The translations under genes were made by a program, and so were the position numbers. Under the pieces are notes generated by a model. The model was not told the DNA's origin and did not search any database. It was given only the letters and a program-made list of their open reading frames with translations. A stretch of 64,000 nucleotides of DNA from Planctomycetaceae bacterium (GTDB lineage Bacteria; Planctomycetota; Planctomycetia; Pirellulales; Pirellulaceae), in assembly GCA_027487485.1 (NCBI GenBank), contig JAIYDN010000009.1:1-64000 (forward strand). The letters are read 5' to 3'. Every line of letters begins with the position of its first letter. Position 1 is the stretch's first letter. Below, one piece after another: positions 21,683 through 28,936 of the stretch.

Positions 21683-24592
21683 ATGACCAATAATGGCGAA
21701 CGTCTTCGGGAATATGGTGAATTGTGGGATGGGCAATTCCAACCCAAATCCATTTACGAACGCGATGCGGAAATGCATCGCGTCGTTGAACAGATCGATA
21801 CGACAGGACGTTCCTTTGTCCTTCTCGGTCGATCGGGAGTAGGTAAGACTTCGATTCTTAAAAACGTTTCGGCACAACTTTCTTCCCGATCAAACGATCC
21901 TTGGGGCATCGTTGAAACATCTACCAGCTTTCTCTTGGCTGGAAAGAAGTATATCGGGGAATGGCAAGGTGTCATTCACGAGATGGTGCGTGTAGCCAAT
22001 CGAAAGGCGCGGGTTGCGATTTGGTTTACCGACTTAATGTACTTGGTTGGAGCAGGTAAGGTTGAGGGGAGCGATGACAACATGGCTTCAGCAATGGCCT
22101 CGCTCATCGAACGACGCGACATCCTGGTGTTTGGCGAGTGCACGCCTGAAGCTTACAAGAACAACATTGAGCCTCATTCCTGGTTCGCTCGCTTGCTCGA
22201 TGTCATTCGAATCGACACGATGCCTCCCGACGTCGCTCGACGTGTTATCGAACAAGCAACTGCCGATCAAGCCAAGGAAACAGGAGCAAAATATGGTTGC
22301 TCAGTTCGCTGGTCGACGAATGCCATCGATCGCCTATGGCAGTTTGGCGAAAACTTTTTTCCAGGGATCGAGCGGCCAGCTGGATCGCTAAAACTGGTTG
22401 AAGTCGCACTTAGTGATTCCCTTTTCGAACCGTACCTTATCGAAAAGTTTGAAGCTCTCGATGCGACACACAAGAATCCATCGGAAATCGAAATCGCCCC
22501 CGAGATCGTCGTCCAAGCTTTAGCTCAAGTCACCGGCGCACCGCGCAAGATGCTGGACGATTCGCTCCCTCTTTCGCTTCAGGAAGTTCGCCAGTTTTTT
22601 CAAAGCAAGCTCGTTGGGCAACGACGGCCCATTGAAGTAATGATCGACTTGATCGCGTTGATCAAGGCGGGGCTCACCGATCCCCTAAAACCACTGGGCG
22701 TTCTGATGTTCGTTGGCCCAACTGGGGTTGGCAAAACGGAATTGGCCAAAGCGCTGGCGGAGTTCGTTTTCGGAGGTGCCGATCGACTTATCCGATTGGA
22801 CATGTCTGAGTACCAAGAGTACGGTGCGGTTGAGAAACTGGTCGGGCGTCCCAGTATGCCCGATCCACCTGGGGGCCTCTTGGCTCGCGTGCGGCAGCAT
22901 CCCTTCTCCGTGGTCTTACTCGATGAAATTGAGAAGGCCCATCCCTCGATCTTCGACCTGCTATTGCAACTGTTTGATGAAGGGCGATTGACGCGTGCAA
23001 CAGGAGAGACCATTAACTTTACGCAAACCGTAATCATTCTGACAAGCAATCTCGGTGCGAGTGAACCGGAGTCCAGCGGGTTTGGCTTCGTTGAAACTCC
23101 GGGCGAAACTCCAGAGGAATCGATTCGCGTCGCAATTCAGACTTTCTTTCGACCGGAGTTGATCAATCGGATAGGGCAAATTGTTGTATTCGACCATTTG
23201 TCTCGACATGAAGTGCGATCTTTGGCCATGCGAGAGATCGGAGCCGTGTTGCTACGAAGTGGGATCACCCGTCGAAAGTTACAAGTTGATATCGATCGAG
23301 GAGTTGTCGACGTCCTGGCGCAGACGGGGTACGATCGTCGTTACGGTGCTCGTCCGCTGAAGCGTGCGGTCGAGCGACAAATCCTTGCACCGCTTGCTCG
23401 ATTCTTGTCGGAAATGGATCCAAAAGAGCAGCCCTCGTTGTTGCAGATGTACCCGGTCGCTGACTCGATTCGACTTCGAGCAGTCGATAACGAGCGAAGT
23501 CGAAGACAGCAATCCGTTCCGCGTATTCGCGTTGTCGATCCTGTCGATGGCAAGACCCGGCGTGTCGATTTTGCACACTTGAACGATATAAAGAACGACC
23601 TACAAGTCGCGGTGAGGGATCTGCGCGCTGTGTCGTTGCGACGTCAAGATGCACAGCGTAAAAGCGAACTCATACAATCTAGTAGCAAACCAGATTTTTG
23701 GGATGATGCGGCCCTTGCACGATCACAATTGGCTGAGCTTTATCGATTGGATCGGTTGCAAGAAGCGATGAACGAACTGGAGAGCCACGCTCGCGAAGTG
23801 ACTTTGCAAATCATGCGGCTTAGCCAGAAGGATACTGCAGCCATAGGTGCGATGGCAAACTTGGTCGAACAGCACCTGCGACAATGTTCGCTCGTTCGTT
23901 TCGCAACCCTGTGTGACTCGGACCTCGATCGCAGCGACGCGTTTGTTGTTCTTGAAGCGATTGAGAAAAATTCGAGCGGCCAGGTGATTCGTCTAATCGA
24001 ATCATACTCCGCCTGGGCGAAGCGTTTTGGATATCAAGTAGTCCCAATTCATGAAGAGTGCTTTGACAGCGGCGAACTGAAGCAAGTTGTCCTTCAAATG
24101 GAAGGGGTGGCTGTCTATGGTGTATTGGCTGGCGAACAAGGTTTGCATGAGTTTGAAGCAAGCCATCCGGCGGAAGGGATGTTGGTAAAGGTATCCGTCC
24201 TTCCGATAGTCGATCAGCCATTCGACGCGCAGCAGATCTCTACGGTCAGATCACCCATCAAGTCGAAGGGGAAATACATTGAGCAGTTTCGCACGCAGAC
24301 CGTTGCCACCTACCGACCGACCGGTCAATTCGTAACATTGTGCAACGGATTTGAAGGAGCGCAAGCGGACTTGAGTGCCAGGGAGTTGTTGTTGGCCGAG
24401 TTGTATCGACAAAAACAGGTTGCAAATTTGCAAGAGCAAGTCCCTCATGCGCGAGTGCGCCGCTGGTGGTTGGGTCCTCAACCTCACGTTCGCGATCCGC
24501 GAACGGACGTAACTGTCCGAAGAATCAAAGATGTAGAAGCAGGATTGATTAATCCATTTTTAATTGCTTGGCTCGAAAGAAACGACGCTTGA
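21683..24592 (+). CDS. ClpB-like double AAA+ ATPase fused to a release-factor-2-like domain
   Basis: This is a 969-residue protein. D1 (about 25-290) has Walker A GRSGVGKT (49-56), but its Walker B site reads FTDLMY (115-120) in place of FIDEIH, so the catalytic Glu is missing. D2 (about 300-570) is complete: Walker A GPTGVGKT (345-352), Walker B VVLLDE, sensor TSN (454-456), arginine finger FRPELINRI and sensor 2 YGARPLKR. There is no Clp N-domain or M-domain. Residues 636-965 follow RF2: an N-terminal coil with KPDFWDDAALARSQLAELYR, then SYSAWAKRFGYQV, VYGVLAGEQGLHEFE, TYRPTGQFVTLCN and a tail VRDPRTDVTVRRIKDVEAGL. The SPF and GGQ motifs are gone, so it cannot act as an ordinary release factor. 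It is 48 bp before the TPR/C39 gene. Function unknown. Confidence 0.85.
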   Translation: MTNNGERLREYGELWDGQFQPKSIYERDAEMHRVVEQIDTTGRSFVLLGRSGVGKTSILKNVSAQLSSRSNDPWGIVETSTSFLLAGKKYIGEWQGVIHEMVRVANRKARVAIWFTDLMYLVGAGKVEGSDDNMASAMASLIERRDILVFGECTPEAYKNNIEPHSWFARLLDVIRIDTMPPDVARRVIEQATADQAKETGAKYGCSVRWSTNAIDRLWQFGENFFPGIERPAGSLKLVEVALSDSLFEPYLIEKFEALDATHKNPSEIEIAPEIVVQALAQVTGAPRKMLDDSLPLSLQEVRQFFQSKLVGQRRPIEVMIDLIALIKAGLTDPLKPLGVLMFVGPTGVGKTELAKALAEFVFGGADRLIRLDMSEYQEYGAVEKLVGRPSMPDPPGGLLARVRQHPFSVVLLDEIEKAHPSIFDLLLQLFDEGRLTRATGETINFTQTVIILTSNLGASEPESSGFGFVETPGETPEESIRVAIQTFFRPELINRIGQIVVFDHLSRHEVRSLAMREIGAVLLRSGITRRKLQVDIDRGVVDVLAQTGYDRRYGARPLKRAVERQILAPLARFLSEMDPKEQPSLLQMYPVADSIRLRAVDNERSRRQQSVPRIRVVDPVDGKTRRVDFAHLNDIKNDLQVAVRDLRAVSLRRQDAQRKSELIQSSSKPDFWDDAALARSQLAELYRLDRLQEAMNELESHAREVTLQIMRLSQKDTAAIGAMANLVEQHLRQCSLVRFATLCDSDLDRSDAFVVLEAIEKNSSGQVIRLIESYSAWAKRFGYQVVPIHEECFDSGELKQVVLQMEGVAVYGVLAGEQGLHEFEASHPAEGMLVKVSVLPIVDQPFDAQQISTVRSPIKSKGKYIEQFRTQTVATYRPTGQFVTLCNGFEGAQADLSARELLLAELYRQKQVANLQEQVPHARVRRWWLGPQPHVRDPRTDVTVRRIKDVEAGLINPFLIAWLERNDA

Positions 24593-24640: not shown

Positions 24641-27600
24641 ATGGAATTTGAAATTGATTGTGTTCAGAACACCCATCTTCATCCGTTATTGTCTGAAGCG
24701 CAGGACAAATGGATAGCCCGACAACCGGCCTTGGCCTACCAAAGTTTTCGAAAGCAGGCTGATGCTCTGCAGGATGCTCGGAAAGCAGGTTCGCTTACCG
24801 CACATGACTGGCGATTTGTCGTAAGCATTCTCAATTCTTGTTCCATGTTCAACCAGGCAAAAGTGGTTGCCAAGCAAGGGCTTTTGGACTTTCCCGAAGA
24901 TGAAGAACTCGTTCTCGAAAGTTTGTGGGAACTAGCCGCTAGCGGTAAGATGTTCGAGTGCATTGAGCGAATTGATAATCATCTTGAGCGAGCAACCGCC
25001 CATCAATTGAGCAGGCTTGAATCGCTACGGGTTTACGCTTATTCCTATTCGGGTTGGAGGCAATCGGCCGCAAAAAACGAACCCAAAGCTCTCGAGCTAG
25101 CCCAAACGGACGCTCTTTCTTTCTATATTCTGTCTCGTGCAGCCTCGTTTCGGAGTGAATGGAAATCTGCAGTTGAATTTGGGCAAAGGGCGGTTCAGCT
25201 TGCCCCTAAGTGGGCGCGTGCTCGGGCTACGCTCTCGGATTCGCTCCTGGCAGTTGGCAGTAAGCAGGAGGCGTTAAAGAACCTGCAGCTATTGCCGGCC
25301 GATGCAACTCCGTTCTTTTCCTATGGAATGTCTGAAGCGTATGCGATGGAAGCGGTCGGGGAGGCACGGATCGCCATTCAGCGACTGGAGAGCCTCCTTC
25401 ATGAATGGCCCGTTCGCTCTCGTTATCAACGGATTGCGGAAACGCATTTGCTCTTGCTACTATTGTCCGAGAATCGCGAAGAGGAAGCCAATCATTTCAT
25501 GGCTTCACGACGCATCAAAAAATTCCCTGTTGAACGCCAATCTGGTGTAGATCGCAAAAAGACTATTTCGCTTCCAATGATTGCTCAGTCTCACAATCAT
25601 TGCGTTCCGACGGTTGCGGCCATGGTTGCGTCCTCGCAAGGGTATCCGGCGAGCCCAATCGAGTTTGCGGTGGGGATGAAGTGCAATGATGGCACGCCTC
25701 TTTGGCGAATGATCGACTATATGTCATCGATTGGGTTCTCTGCACATTGTGTTCGGCCAGAATTGGATACGGTCGAATACTTTATTGACCGAAACATTCC
25801 CCTGATCGGATCAACAAGTGGACTGTTTAGTAGCCATGTCGATGTCATTTGTGGTTATGATCGAGCGATCAACCTGTTGCATATTCGAGACCCTATGCAC
25901 TGGCATGGATTATGCGCGTATGCTTCGAAAATTCAATCGCGATATAGTGGTGGCGACGGCCTTTGGGCACTCGTTCGTAATTCGTCTTCGGACGTTTCAG
26001 CGATTCCGGATGAAATGAAGTGGCCTGAAGGTGAGGCAATCATTCGTATGGCGCGAGCCGTGGCAAATGCAGATCGACTCGCTGCGGAAGAGGCGTTTCA
26101 ACAGATTCCAGACGATCATCCACTTGCCCTGTCTCGAAATGGGTACGCAAATGATGTTGTAATAACTCAGCGCGAATACGATCGCCAGCTAAAAGCGTTT
26201 GCGAATTGGGACGAGGAACCTCTAAAGGCCTCAACCATGCGCGCCATCTTGTCGCAGATCGATGAAAACAACGCAGAAGATGTAATCAAAATGATCGACC
26301 AGCGTGTGGATACATTTGGAACGAAATTTGCCGATTACATCCGATGCCAATGTTTTGTAGCTCAACAAAAATGGCGAGATGCCCAGCAGCTTTTGTCCGT
26401 CCTCTCGCGTGATATTCCCCAGCTTGAATCGCTATGGCGGCTCTATTCGTTGGTTGAAGAACAGCTTGGCAACGCAGAGCTCGCTGAATCACTTCTCAAA
26501 AATGCACTGGACATCGAACCGAACAACGTCGGCTTGAACCGACGTTTGCTCGAACTGAAATCGGATGAGATAACCTACGATGCTCGACTCGCTCGAGTGC
26601 AAGTTCTGTGCGAAGCAGCCCCTGATAACACAGAAGGCAGATGGTTGCTATTCAAGACGATCATGGACGGAGGAGATGGGCTCCAGATAGAGCAAGCCAT
26701 GCGGGAGGCGATTCGCTATTTTCCACGTCAGCCAAGCTGCTATGAAATATTGGCTCGTTGGTACTTGAGGCAAGGACGAAATGACTTGGCAAAACAAGTG
26801 CTATTGGAGGGAAGGTCTCTTTTGGAGGAGGTGGATCTGCCCCTCTTTGATTTTGAGATTCAAGAGCAGAATGACAAGGTTCTCGAGGTTGCGGGCGAAA
26901 CAAACGAAGCGGGTGATTTAAGCTCGTCCGCTCCCACAGACGCTAACAAGGGCGATGAAGTACGAACGGATGCATTCACGGAGAAAATGAATCATGTCGT
27001 AAAGATGAGCAAAGAACTTTCCTCCGCAGAAACATTGAAGCTGACCGAGACACAAGAACTGATTGCTATCGATGACGAAGGTACCTTACCTTGGTCCCAA
27101 TCGGCTTCGTTTCGAAGTTGGTTGCTCGGAAAGAATTTGCTAAGTCCTGGATCGTCAGTCGCTGAAAAGAAAAACGCCCTTGATGAGTTCACGTCCATGC
27201 TTCCCCGAAAAGCCATTCCTGGAATTCCGGAAAGCTACGCTACGTTGCTGTTCGATCTTCTCGAAATCTATCCTCTAACCGCCTTGCACGCACGAGTACT
27301 TTTGGAATGGCTACGAGAAAGTTGCCCGAATTCTTCCAAGTATCCGCGGCTTGAATTTAGTCGAGCGTATTTGCAAGAGCTGAGCGGTAATTTAAACGAC
27401 GCAGAGAAAACACTTGACTCCATCATTGAAAGGTATCCGACCTTCTCCGCGTCGTGGTATCGCAAAGGGCAAATCTCGCGTTCCAGAACAGATCTCAAGA
27501 ACGCCATCCGATTTCATAAAAAGTGCTTGTCCGTGGCCCCTTCTATCGACGGAGCGATGAACGAATTGATTGACATCTACAGTTATCTTCAAGAGCCAGA

Positions 27601-28936
27601 AGAACAGGTCTATCGAGAACAACTGTTGAAGTTGTATCCTTACTCAAGATTGAGTATCTATCGAGCAGCTGCAGGTGCGGGGAAACAAGCGAACTCGGTC
27701 GACAAGGCAATCGAATTCATCCAGAGCCAAAAGGAGCGAATGTGCCACGAAGACTTTGTGCTCCTTCAAGCTCGATTGTTGGCTGATTTCGAGCAATTTG
27801 ACGCTGCTGCAAATTTGGTTGCAACCCTGCCAAGTGTATCCACCAAGAATGCGTCGGTTGCCGATTGGTTGAAAGTGGACTGTTATCTTGCAAAGCAAAA
27901 TTTTTCGGAAGCTATCGACGCGCTATTGACCATCCTTGAAAGAGACAAGGATGATCAGGAAGCACTCGACCAACTAGTCCGATTGTACCGAGAAGTCCAG
28001 CCAGCCAAAGCGGTCACGTTTGCTAAAAATAAACTTCAGAAAGGAGTTAGCAATTACATTTTGGCTTATGTTTTTTGCCAATATGAAAAGGATCCGGTGA
28101 AAGCTGCAATCGACTTGCTGAAGAATCTTGAGTCTGAGCCCAAGGACCGGGTAGCTGCTGCATTCGGCGAGGCCTTCAATCAGAACTCACTCCATTCCCA
28201 TTTGCTTTCTTATTTGAAATGGGTGGATACCAACTTGCCTCATCTCGTGGATATGCGTGAAACTTATGCGATCCGACTAAACATGGCTGGTCAAAATGCG
28301 AATGCTACCCGAGTTGCCGAAGATCTAAACCGATTGGAACCAGACAATCCAAGATGGTTGCGATTGTTGGGGATTTGTATCCAAGATATCGACACCAAGA
28401 AGTCAATCGAATATTTGAAGAAGGAGTTTGAGCTGACTGGTTCCTCGGACACTTTAGTACGACTCGGCCGTGGCTATCAACTGTGCGACGATCCAAAGGC
28501 AGCCAGGCATCACTACTACGGAGCGCTCGAGATCAACCCGCACGAGACGTTGGCGATAACCAACCTGGTGTTCAAATACAACGAATTGAGCCCGGAACTT
28601 CATCGAAAAGCAAATGAAGCACTCGATCATGGCCATGGAGTTCAAGATCAATACTTCCATGTTTGCGCAATCAAGCTCGCCAAACAAGTTCGCGGCAAGG
28701 TTTCCACCAGTTGGTACGCGACAGCACTTCAGAGGTATCAATTGGTCTTGAACGGAGAGGGCTTTCGCGACGAACCCTCTAAGCTGAAGTATGCAATCCT
28801 TTCGTGGGCGACTGCTATCGGTGATAAAAAGACATTGAAAAGATATGGCTCCGTTCTTGATCGGCTGTCCGTTCGGTTTAGGTGGCCTGGAAATGATTGG
28901 ATTCCAAAGGACTCACTCGCAAAGCTCAATGAATAA
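24641..28936 (+). CDS. Giant TPR protein with embedded C39-type papain-like peptidase
   Basis: This is a 1431-residue protein. TPR-like helical repeats occupy about 30-290 and 440-1400 (for example LESLWRLYSLVEEQLGNAEL and SWYRKGQISRSRTDLKNAIR). Between them, residues 310-425 form a C39_2-like cysteine peptidase. Gln316 and Cys321 lie in AQSHNHCVPTVAAM, His399 in SSHVDVICGYD and Asp417 in IRDPMHW, so the oxyanion Gln and the triad are all present. There is no signal peptide or membrane helix, so a cytoplasmic location is likely. It follows the AAA+/RF2-like gene on the same strand; both lie within a pair of direct repeats. I infer that TPRs recruit a substrate or the ATPase and the peptidase cuts it; this is untested. 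Confidence 0.82.
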   Translation: MEFEIDCVQNTHLHPLLSEAQDKWIARQPALAYQSFRKQADALQDARKAGSLTAHDWRFVVSILNSCSMFNQAKVVAKQGLLDFPEDEELVLESLWELAASGKMFECIERIDNHLERATAHQLSRLESLRVYAYSYSGWRQSAAKNEPKALELAQTDALSFYILSRAASFRSEWKSAVEFGQRAVQLAPKWARARATLSDSLLAVGSKQEALKNLQLLPADATPFFSYGMSEAYAMEAVGEARIAIQRLESLLHEWPVRSRYQRIAETHLLLLLLSENREEEANHFMASRRIKKFPVERQSGVDRKKTISLPMIAQSHNHCVPTVAAMVASSQGYPASPIEFAVGMKCNDGTPLWRMIDYMSSIGFSAHCVRPELDTVEYFIDRNIPLIGSTSGLFSSHVDVICGYDRAINLLHIRDPMHWHGLCAYASKIQSRYSGGDGLWALVRNSSSDVSAIPDEMKWPEGEAIIRMARAVANADRLAAEEAFQQIPDDHPLALSRNGYANDVVITQREYDRQLKAFANWDEEPLKASTMRAILSQIDENNAEDVIKMIDQRVDTFGTKFADYIRCQCFVAQQKWRDAQQLLSVLSRDIPQLESLWRLYSLVEEQLGNAELAESLLKNALDIEPNNVGLNRRLLELKSDEITYDARLARVQVLCEAAPDNTEGRWLLFKTIMDGGDGLQIEQAMREAIRYFPRQPSCYEILARWYLRQGRNDLAKQVLLEGRSLLEEVDLPLFDFEIQEQNDKVLEVAGETNEAGDLSSSAPTDANKGDEVRTDAFTEKMNHVVKMSKELSSAETLKLTETQELIAIDDEGTLPWSQSASFRSWLLGKNLLSPGSSVAEKKNALDEFTSMLPRKAIPGIPESYATLLFDLLEIYPLTALHARVLLEWLRESCPNSSKYPRLEFSRAYLQELSGNLNDAEKTLDSIIERYPTFSASWYRKGQISRSRTDLKNAIRFHKKCLSVAPSIDGAMNELIDIYSYLQEPEEQVYREQLLKLYPYSRLSIYRAAAGAGKQANSVDKAIEFIQSQKERMCHEDFVLLQARLLADFEQFDAAANLVATLPSVSTKNASVADWLKVDCYLAKQNFSEAIDALLTILERDKDDQEALDQLVRLYREVQPAKAVTFAKNKLQKGVSNYILAYVFCQYEKDPVKAAIDLLKNLESEPKDRVAAAFGEAFNQNSLHSHLLSYLKWVDTNLPHLVDMRETYAIRLNMAGQNANATRVAEDLNRLEPDNPRWLRLLGICIQDIDTKKSIEYLKKEFELTGSSDTLVRLGRGYQLCDDPKAARHHYYGALEINPHETLAITNLVFKYNELSPELHRKANEALDHGHGVQDQYFHVCAIKLAKQVRGKVSTSWYATALQRYQLVLNGEGFRDEPSKLKYAILSWATAIGDKKTLKRYGSVLDRLSVRFRWPGNDWIPKDSLAKLNE

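Follow-up and report, generated by a model that had tools for sequence, protein, structure and literature searches.

A two-ring Clp ATPase carrying a release factor 2-like tail without GGQ or SPF in Planctomycetota and Chloroflexota

Architecture of the fusion protein

The DNA analyzed in this study (the window) comprises 64,000 nucleotides, positions 1 to 64,000 of contig JAIYDN010000009.1 in the GenBank assembly GCA_027487485.1 of a Planctomycetaceae bacterium. The gene located at 21683-24592 on the plus strand starts with ATG and encodes a protein of 969 amino acids, in which two Clp-type AAA+ modules are followed by a tail homologous to release factor 2 (RF2). From the sequence comparisons, it is nearly certain that this protein is a Clp motor carrying an RF2-derived tail. 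The favored reading is that the tail is non-catalytic and would act in recruitment to a Clp motor that has a ClpP-type loop and a single competent ATPase ring, and the fusion may point to translation and protein quality control being linked within one protein. The parts of the gene are as follows.

21683..24592, plus strand: whole gene, fusion protein of 969 amino acids, with full-length homologues
21755..22492, plus strand: AAA+ module D1, spanning roughly residues 25-270, with no N-domain ahead and the first Walker A at residue 49
22493..23413, plus strand: AAA+ module D2, spanning roughly residues 271-577, with intact Walker A, Walker B and sensor-2 GAR
23414..23587, plus strand: linker with a short beta hairpin (residues 615-618 and 625-628) predicted in AlphaFold2 models
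23588..24589, plus strand: RF2-like tail, residues 636-969, from profile, phmmer, hhalign and Foldseek matches

Full-length homologues of the window protein were found in many genomes, including G006 (53%), G096 (43%) and the Chloroflexota locus L196 (29%, E=2e-110), which ruled out chance similarity, a wrong reading frame and an assembly artefact as the source of the fusion.

Homology of the tail to RF2 was established by both sequence and fold comparison. The prfB model TIGR00020 matched residues 641-964 of the window protein (E=3.1e-20), the PCRF family PF03462 matched the tail (4.5e-10), and a phmmer search of the Protein Data Bank (PDB) returned RF2 at 1.5e-10; the GGQ-domain family PF00472 was absent among the Pfam matches listed for the protein (25 of 44). 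The hhalign comparison of a profile of 20 fusion tails with a profile of 12 RF2 proteins gave a probability of 100 (E=2.8e-51) over 335 columns, and the fusion-tail profile matched PDB chains of RF2 at 2.6e-58 and of RF1 at 1e-38.

The tail was also modeled with AlphaFold2 from an alignment of three fusion proteins containing no RF2 row. Confidence in this model was low (predicted local distance difference test, pLDDT, 61; predicted template modeling score, pTM, 0.46), and the Foldseek search of the PDB with it gave release-factor chains (RF2, RF1 and mitochondrial RF1) in all 50 matches listed, with a best E of 1.4e-11 and TM up to 0.55/0.63. A few Foldseek rows carry the name of a ribosome complex only, and their chains are RF1 or RF2 according to the PDB phmmer listing. 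The model obtained with RF2 rows added, which is biased towards RF2, reached pLDDT 87 and pTM 0.85 (best Foldseek E 4.2e-19). The original prediction, made from the letters of the window, had proposed a release factor (RF)-like fold after residue 630; such a fold, with domains 1-4 of a class-I release factor, was recovered by hhalign and by Foldseek on the pLDDT 61 model.

Release-factor motifs kept and lost in the tail

A total of 43 fusions were compared, consisting of 32 from planctomycetes and 11 from Chloroflexota. Twenty-eight of the planctomycete fusions were aligned with 14 release factors, and 27 of these 28 extend to the GGQ site; the remaining 15 fusions (4 planctomycete and 11 Chloroflexota) formed a second set. 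The sites of the RF2 motifs in the window are listed below.

23696..23707, plus strand: FWDD of RF2 domain 1, kept (F in 25/27, W in 27/27)
23960..23983, plus strand: alpha5 tip site (GAGGT in RF2), IEKNSSGQ, lost (the two RF2-invariant G retained in 1/27 and 2/27)
24131..24154, plus strand: ExGxH core motif of RF domain 2, kept (E, G and H each in 27/27)
24152..24178, plus strand: shortened SPF stop-codon loop site, reading FEASHPAEG in the alignment to RF2
24260..24286, plus strand: GGQ loop site, KSKGKYIEQ; among the GGQ letters, the second G alone is commonly kept
24431..24457, plus strand: switch loop site (WGSQI in RF2), QEQVPHARV, lost, from alignment to RF2
24458..24508, plus strand: RF domain 4, RRWWLGPQ..VRDPRTD, kept (R304 in 27/27, Y306 in 25/27, D316 in 24/27)

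In the alignment to RF2, the SPF site of the window protein was occupied by a six-column gap and EASHPAEG, and the GGQ site by SKGKYIEQF, in agreement with the ASHPAEG and KGKYIEQFR that had been read at these places in the original prediction. The codon-reading loop SP[FY] was found in none of the 43 fusion tails. Likewise, the catalytic GGQ was found in none of the 27 alignable planctomycete fusions and in none of the 15 further tails, and the letters GGQ occur elsewhere in two fusions, within the Clp part or the linker. The second G of GGQ was retained in 24 of the 27 planctomycete fusions, and no conserved Gln or other polar substitute stood out at the site in these 27 sequences. Domain 3 was shortened to 62-80 residues in 26 fusions and to 48 in one, compared with 82-83 in the RF rows; the sequence of L177 is cut off.

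The RF2-like domain without GGQ or SPF, as originally predicted on a Clp motor, was thus borne out by TIGR00020, hhalign and the motif counts. Judged from these motifs, whose loss is established by the comparison, the tail can neither decode stop codons via the known elements nor release peptides via GGQ. The genome encodes its own RF1 and RF2 with GGQ, together with two further PF00472 proteins; given this RF1 and RF2, the tail is no replacement for them.

Conservation was scored in the 27 planctomycete fusions at 59 columns that are invariant in 13 RF2 proteins (L001 numbering). Eleven of the 59 columns, namely F28, W29, A35, G165, E175, G177, H179, L271, R304, Y306 and G332, were kept in at least 90% of the fusions. 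The switch-loop motif WG[ST] was present in 7 of the 11 Chloroflexota fusions and in none of the 32 planctomycete fusions, the window included. In E. coli RF2, the Trp of the switch loop forms a stacking contact with A1492, and the L11 stalk is contacted by domain 1 (PMC5378476).

The ratio of nonsynonymous to synonymous substitution rates (dN/dS) of the tail was 0.04-0.27 in six pairs, which are not independent because three share L197 with others, compared with 0.005-0.15 for the Clp part, and dN was higher in the tail than in the Clp part in all six. These ratios indicate that the tail evolves under purifying selection.

D1 and D2 of the Clp motor

The Clp part matched the Pfam families AAA_2 (8.5e-46) and ClpB_D2-small (4.9e-13). 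Among hidden Markov models (HMMs), the ClpB model TIGR03346 scored 2e-93 and the ClpA model TIGR02639 scored 2.1e-80, the latter as one unbroken stretch from 46 to 573. The motifs of the motor are as follows.

21827..21850, plus strand: D1 Walker A, GRSGVGKT, kept
21938..21967, plus strand: D1 pore loop, AGKKYIGEWQ, aromatic residue kept ([FYW]xGEW in 27/28 planctomycete fusions)
22019..22036, plus strand: D1 Walker B, IWFTDL, degenerate compared with FIDE of ordinary Clps
22838..22876, plus strand: D2 pore-1 loop site, GY[VI]G lost, LVGRPSMPDPPGG
22910..22927, plus strand: D2 Walker B, VVLLDE, kept (DE[IVF]EK in 42/43 fusions, L223 being the exception)
23072..23095, plus strand: ClpP-type peptidase-docking loop, SSGFGFVE

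D1 and D2 modules, each with a Walker A, identify the protein as a two-ring Hsp100/Clp ATPase. The D2 Walker A reads GPTGVGKT in 27 of the 28 planctomycete fusions and GPTGVVKT in L177. The acidic pair DE of the D1 Walker B was present in all 16 unselected ordinary Clps, whereas it was found at the matching place in none of the 43 fusions; the sole pattern match among the fusions (L223) falls in another segment. Accordingly, a competent Walker B is seen in one ring (D2, 42/43) and not in the other (D1, 0/43). The comparison establishes that the catalytic motifs of D2 are intact, that the D1 Walker B is degenerate, that GY[VI]G of D2 is lost and that a ClpP-type loop is present.

The Chloroflexota fusion L223 (4181-7102) has an altered D2 Walker A (GPVGVGKI) and no DE..EK or GF loop, and its RF tail and a WGT switch loop are retained; from these motifs it is likely to be a pseudo-ATPase. 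In six Chloroflexota fusions, the Trp of SWGD/TWGD lies near the D2 pore-loop place. More than 270 residues precede the D1 Walker A in 18 of the 28 planctomycete fusions, and HEAT repeats were detected before D1 in L158 and L171, the two tested (Pfam HEAT_2, 4e-11 and 1e-13).

Resemblance of the motor to ClpA/ClpC

The ClpB-type M-domain between D1 and D2 is absent from the window protein, as indicated by the Walker A spacing and the unbroken ClpA HMM match. No N-terminal Clp_N domain was seen either, since the D1 Walker A begins as early as residue 49 and Clp_N was not among the Pfam matches listed (25 of 44). A [VILF]GF loop was found in 28 of 28 planctomycete fusions, and GF at the matching place in 14 of the 15 further ones, with L223 as the exception. 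Ordinary Clps with a Walker A spacing of 336-339 showed the GF loop in all 10 cases with a readable loop, and those with a spacing of 402-422 in none of 5; among these five, L023 (above the cut-off) and L024 (just below it) score as ClpB. The Walker A motifs of the window protein are 296 residues apart, and by loop and spacing its motor groups with the GF-loop, narrow-spacing kind of Clp, which is ClpA/ClpC-like.

The original prediction of a ClpB-type motor was imprecise: the lack of N- and M-domains and the ClpP-type loop place the motor nearer to ClpA/ClpC. The best PDB match of the motor was 5ofo, whose chain is named ClpB with ClpA, and its IGL aligns with FGF of the window protein. Loops of the GF/IGL kind dock ClpA and ClpX on ClpP (PMC7707817). 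Two clpP genes lie on the same contig of this genome (C86:96983-98149). With the ClpP-type loop and the ClpA/ClpC-like layout, the likely output shifts from disaggregation towards possible ClpP-linked proteolysis.

Distribution of the family and the sister Clp set

The fusion was found in at least 24 of 392 planctomycete genomes of the phylum sample (frames read) and in 10 or 11 of 296 genomes of the order sample (E<1e-70; six read, G080 being a fragment), in which the next match was at 1e-62; an ordinary RF2 elsewhere reached 4e-71. It was also found in 11 of 251 Chloroflexota genomes, the frames of all 11 being read, so that the search across phyla suggested in the original prediction yielded fusions in two of them, Planctomycetota and Chloroflexota. 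The tail was unseen in 194 genomes of the Akkermansia-locus phylum (G715), 178 of the Rubrobacter-locus phylum (G719) and 57 of the G718 phylum, in a weak test that scored 3-14 candidates per genome. The candidates L178-L180 were rejected as fusions, being ordinary RF2 genes with open frames extending upstream.

Plasmids searched at E<=1e-60 gave two ordinary Clps. The phage search with the tail (E<=1e-3) returned 29 records, all with less than 60% identity, of which 4 cover at least 80% of the tail; the 8 rows listed are unannotated. In PADLOC, which covers known anti-phage defence systems, matches of the window protein were confined to the AAA region (best DolB, 1.7e-27, residues 298-459) and, beyond it, to two weak LmuB matches beginning at residue 634 (0.008 and 0.02).

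Quick trees were evaluated by the Shimodaira-Hasegawa-like approximate likelihood ratio test (SH-aLRT). In the D2 tree, 12 ordinary Clps (chosen for GYVG) were split from 48 family members by a branch at 100, and in the tail tree, 27 RF1/RF2 rows were split from 38 fusion tails, likewise by a branch at 100. These comparisons provide good support for the fusions of Planctomycetota and Chloroflexota belonging to one family of two-ring AAA+ ATPases of the Clp type, distinct from the ordinary Clps.

Three paralogous Clp genes (A, B and C) make up a sister set, which is scattered in some genomes and arranged in tandem in five planctomycete loci, as follows.

L035: 6531-15820, tandem A-B-C set
L036: 5537-14876, tandem A-B-C set
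L037: 869-9916, tandem A-B-C set
L038: 8035-16985, tandem A-B-C set
L039: 3-9020, tandem A-B-C set

The A-type tails match RF2 over profile columns 46-216, which correspond to domains 1-2 (probability 95.4, E 1.9e-8). The B-type tails have a profile probability of 91.6 against the fusion tails and 8.7 against RF2 directly, and the C-type protein has no tail. From its gene order and tails, the tandem set looks like a hetero-ring.

Two further loci were observed. A tandem Clp triple (764, 1059 and 1102 amino acids) lies at L224:5848-14629 in the Akkermansia-locus (L088) phylum, and its middle member groups with the B-type in the D2 tree. The tail encoded at L191:9308-12805 (Chloroflexota) has RF2 domains 1, 2 and 4 without the GGQ domain, forming a bridge between the fusion and A-type tails; the N-terminal region of this protein, about 240 residues, has no Pfam match.

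Genomic context

In 6 of the 11 Chloroflexota genomes (L196, L197 and L216-L219), the fusion lies between a phosphoribosyltransferase gene, probably pyrR-like, and pyrB (Pfam OTCace), and its start overlaps the end of the pyrR-like gene by 1-4 bases. This position points to joint expression with pyrimidine genes in the Chloroflexota lineage concerned rather than to a function.

Neighboring genes within 9 kb were compared for the 28 planctomycete fusions. The largest shared neighbor cluster, present in six of the 28 loci, contains a protein kinase gene, which is adjacent to the fusion in one locus and kilobases away elsewhere. In that locus (L163:5977-8088), the Pkinase gene stops 3 bases upstream of the fusion gene, and five other loci have relatives in the kinase cluster no more than 9 kb away. 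The neighborhood was taken as chance in these kinase-rich genomes. In the window, a gene of 1431 amino acids (24641-28936), 48 bases downstream of the fusion, encodes tetratricopeptide repeats (TPR) with an inserted Peptidase_C39_2, and no relative of this gene was found beside the other fusions compared.

Proposed role of the fusion and alternative explanations

In the proposed mechanism, the tail would be a recruitment module that takes the place of the absent N- and M-domains. The retained surfaces of the RF scaffold (domain 1 and domains 2/4), rather than decoding or hydrolysis, would bring the ring to clients of the translation machinery. The D1 pore loop would grip the client, D2 would be the sole ring with ATPase competence, and clients would pass to ClpP via the conserved GF loop. 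We infer the translation-linked client, the coupling to ClpP and the gripping by D1 alone; the complete mechanism, from recruitment by the RF tail to hand-over to ClpP, is put forward tentatively. In its favor are the RF homology and fold of the tail, the absence of GGQ and SPF alongside a retained core, the purifying selection on the tail, the trees, the ClpP-type loop, the two clpP genes, the separate RF1 and RF2 of the genome, WG[ST] in 7 of 11 Chloroflexota fusions, and Vms1 and Cdc48 as a precedent for an RF relative that works with an AAA+ unfoldase (PMC6514570). A more specific version is a bacterial counterpart of Vms1-Cdc48, in which a stop-codon-blind, hydrolysis-dead tail would, as a tRNA mimic, dock the unfoldase (with ClpP) on ribosomes or post-termination complexes and so extract and destroy nascent chains or translation factors; it would have an A-B-C hetero-ring form with tails on two of the three subunit types. 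This analogy is rather doubtful.

Several observations weigh against such a role. Most of the residues by which RF2 touches the decoding center and the peptidyl-transferase center are gone, and 17 of the 59 RF2-invariant columns were lost in at least 90% of the 27 fusions, including the alpha5-tip GG, R180, TS195-196, the first G and the Q of GGQ, RSQ, N263, and the G and Q of the switch loop. The docking in the ribosomal A-site that had been predicted is still possible but weakened, since GGQ, SPF and most A-site contacts are lost; domain 1 and the fold core are kept, and WG[ST] occurs in 7 of the 11 Chloroflexota fusions, which leaves room for some ribosomal contact. The neighbors of the 28 planctomycete fusions form few shared clusters, with no conserved translation gene seen among them. 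In the sister set, the A-type tails seem by eye to be without the GGQ domain, and the peptidase loop varies (GY in 2/9 B-type and GL in 1/10 A-type proteins, with S, T or A before GF in several). Finally, all 16 unselected ordinary Clps have GYVG (13) or GYIG (3) in D2, whereas neither occurs in any of the 43 fusions. In ClpA, the Tyr of this D2 loop contacts the substrate, and its contacts are considered essential for binding and translocation (PMC9663308); the loss of the loop throughout the fusions argues against ordinary unfold-and-thread action, although six Chloroflexota fusions have a Trp near its place.

It is quite conceivable, though short of probable, that the tail is purely a protein-protein scaffold or a ring-assembly or regulatory domain, acting off the ribosome with a re-used RF fold. 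Most known contact motifs for rRNA and mRNA are lost, no conserved translation gene was seen in the neighborhood, and the tails of the sister set are still more degenerate, the A-type retaining domains 1-2 only and the B-type hardly matching RF2 (8.7). Moreover, the tail is located at the D2 end of the protein, and in ClpA the contacts with ClpP and those of the ring lie at the D2 end. The retention of the fold core and of the domain-1 FW motif, together with WG[ST] of the switch loop in the seven Chloroflexota copies, speaks against a pure scaffold.

A non-proteolytic remodeller, in which the GF loop is inherited and ClpP unused, with D1 as a static, ATP-bound ring and D2 powering the conformational switching, is unlikely. 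Every fusion read has a degenerate D1 Walker B and no GY[VI]G, GYVG was likewise found in 0/28 of the sister A, B and C proteins, and L223 has neither a GF loop nor DE..EK of D2, with its D2 Walker A changed, all of which would suit a remodeller. However, GF is kept in 42 of the 43 fusions while the adjoining loop residues vary, which is the pattern expected of a docking motif.

It is very improbable that the fusion is an alternative peptide-release or ribosome-rescue factor with a different catalytic residue. The persistence of domain 3 in shortened form and of the second G of GGQ in 24 of 27 fusions fits such a factor, but the same 27 sequences offer no conserved Gln or polar replacement, and the alpha5 tip, SPF, TSF and RSQxxN are lost, as is the switch loop in planctomycetes; the genome, in addition, already encodes an RF1, an RF2 and another two PF00472 proteins. 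The idea that the tail is a non-functional remnant in decay, as its higher dN in six of six pairs might suggest, is scarcely credible and largely refuted by the constraint on it (dN/dS 0.04-0.27), by its open frame in the fusions read and by its retention in two phyla.

In summary, non-catalytic recruitment to the Clp motor remains the favored explanation. To our knowledge, the RF1/RF2-fold proteins known so far are release or rescue factors. Here, the RF fold is without the motifs of release or rescue, is part of an AAA+ machine and has been kept by selection in both phyla. Should the tail contact the ribosome, the fusion would be a hard-wired bacterial link from translation to proteolysis, convergent with ribosome quality control in eukaryotes; otherwise, it would be a rare case of a translation factor taken up by a Clp ATPase as an adaptor domain. 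In both cases, the loss of GY[VI]G from D2 alongside a ClpP-type loop offers a natural test of Clp rings without D2 gripping.

Comparison with known systems

The original prediction knew of no described system with such a fusion, and no published description of a Clp fused to an RF2-like domain was found in the open-licence PubMed Central (PMC) literature. The passages of PMC6514570 consulted, which cover release-factor relatives, likewise contain no mention of a Clp fusion.

Class-I RF2 (prfB) shares with the tail homology over domains 1-4, the FW motif, ExGxH and (V/I)RxY...DxRTG. It differs in that the fusion is without GGQ, SPF, the alpha5 GGT tip and RSQxxN, and in planctomycetes without the switch-loop Trp, and is joined to a motor in a genome that keeps RF1 and RF2. 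ClpA and ClpC resemble the fusion in having D1-D2 without a ClpB-type M-domain, a GF-type peptidase loop, an aromatic D1 pore loop and intact D2 ATPase motifs. In contrast to them, the window protein has no N-domain, a degenerate D1 Walker B, no GY[VI]G and an RF2-like tail, and lies on a separate branch. ClpB/Hsp104 gives the best HMM score, which comes from the D2 part, but the fusion lacks the M-domain and GY[VI]G and has a ClpP-type loop.

PrfH (RFH), ArfB, inactive Dom34 and most baeRF-1 proteins are also repurposed release-factor relatives, the last two being non-catalytic (PMC6514570). PrfH and ArfB differ from the fusion tail in keeping the catalytic Gln, and Dom34 and baeRF-1 differ in having another fold. 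A counterpart in concept is Vms1/ANKZF1 with Cdc48 in eukaryotic ribosome quality control, where a release-factor relative is tied to an AAA+ unfoldase; Vms1 is described in PMC6514570 as an aeRF-1 relative working with Cdc48. However, the aeRF-1 superfamily of Vms1 is an unrelated one, and its contact with Cdc48 is through a VIM motif, whereas in the present family an RF2-type tail is covalently part of the Clp ATPase.

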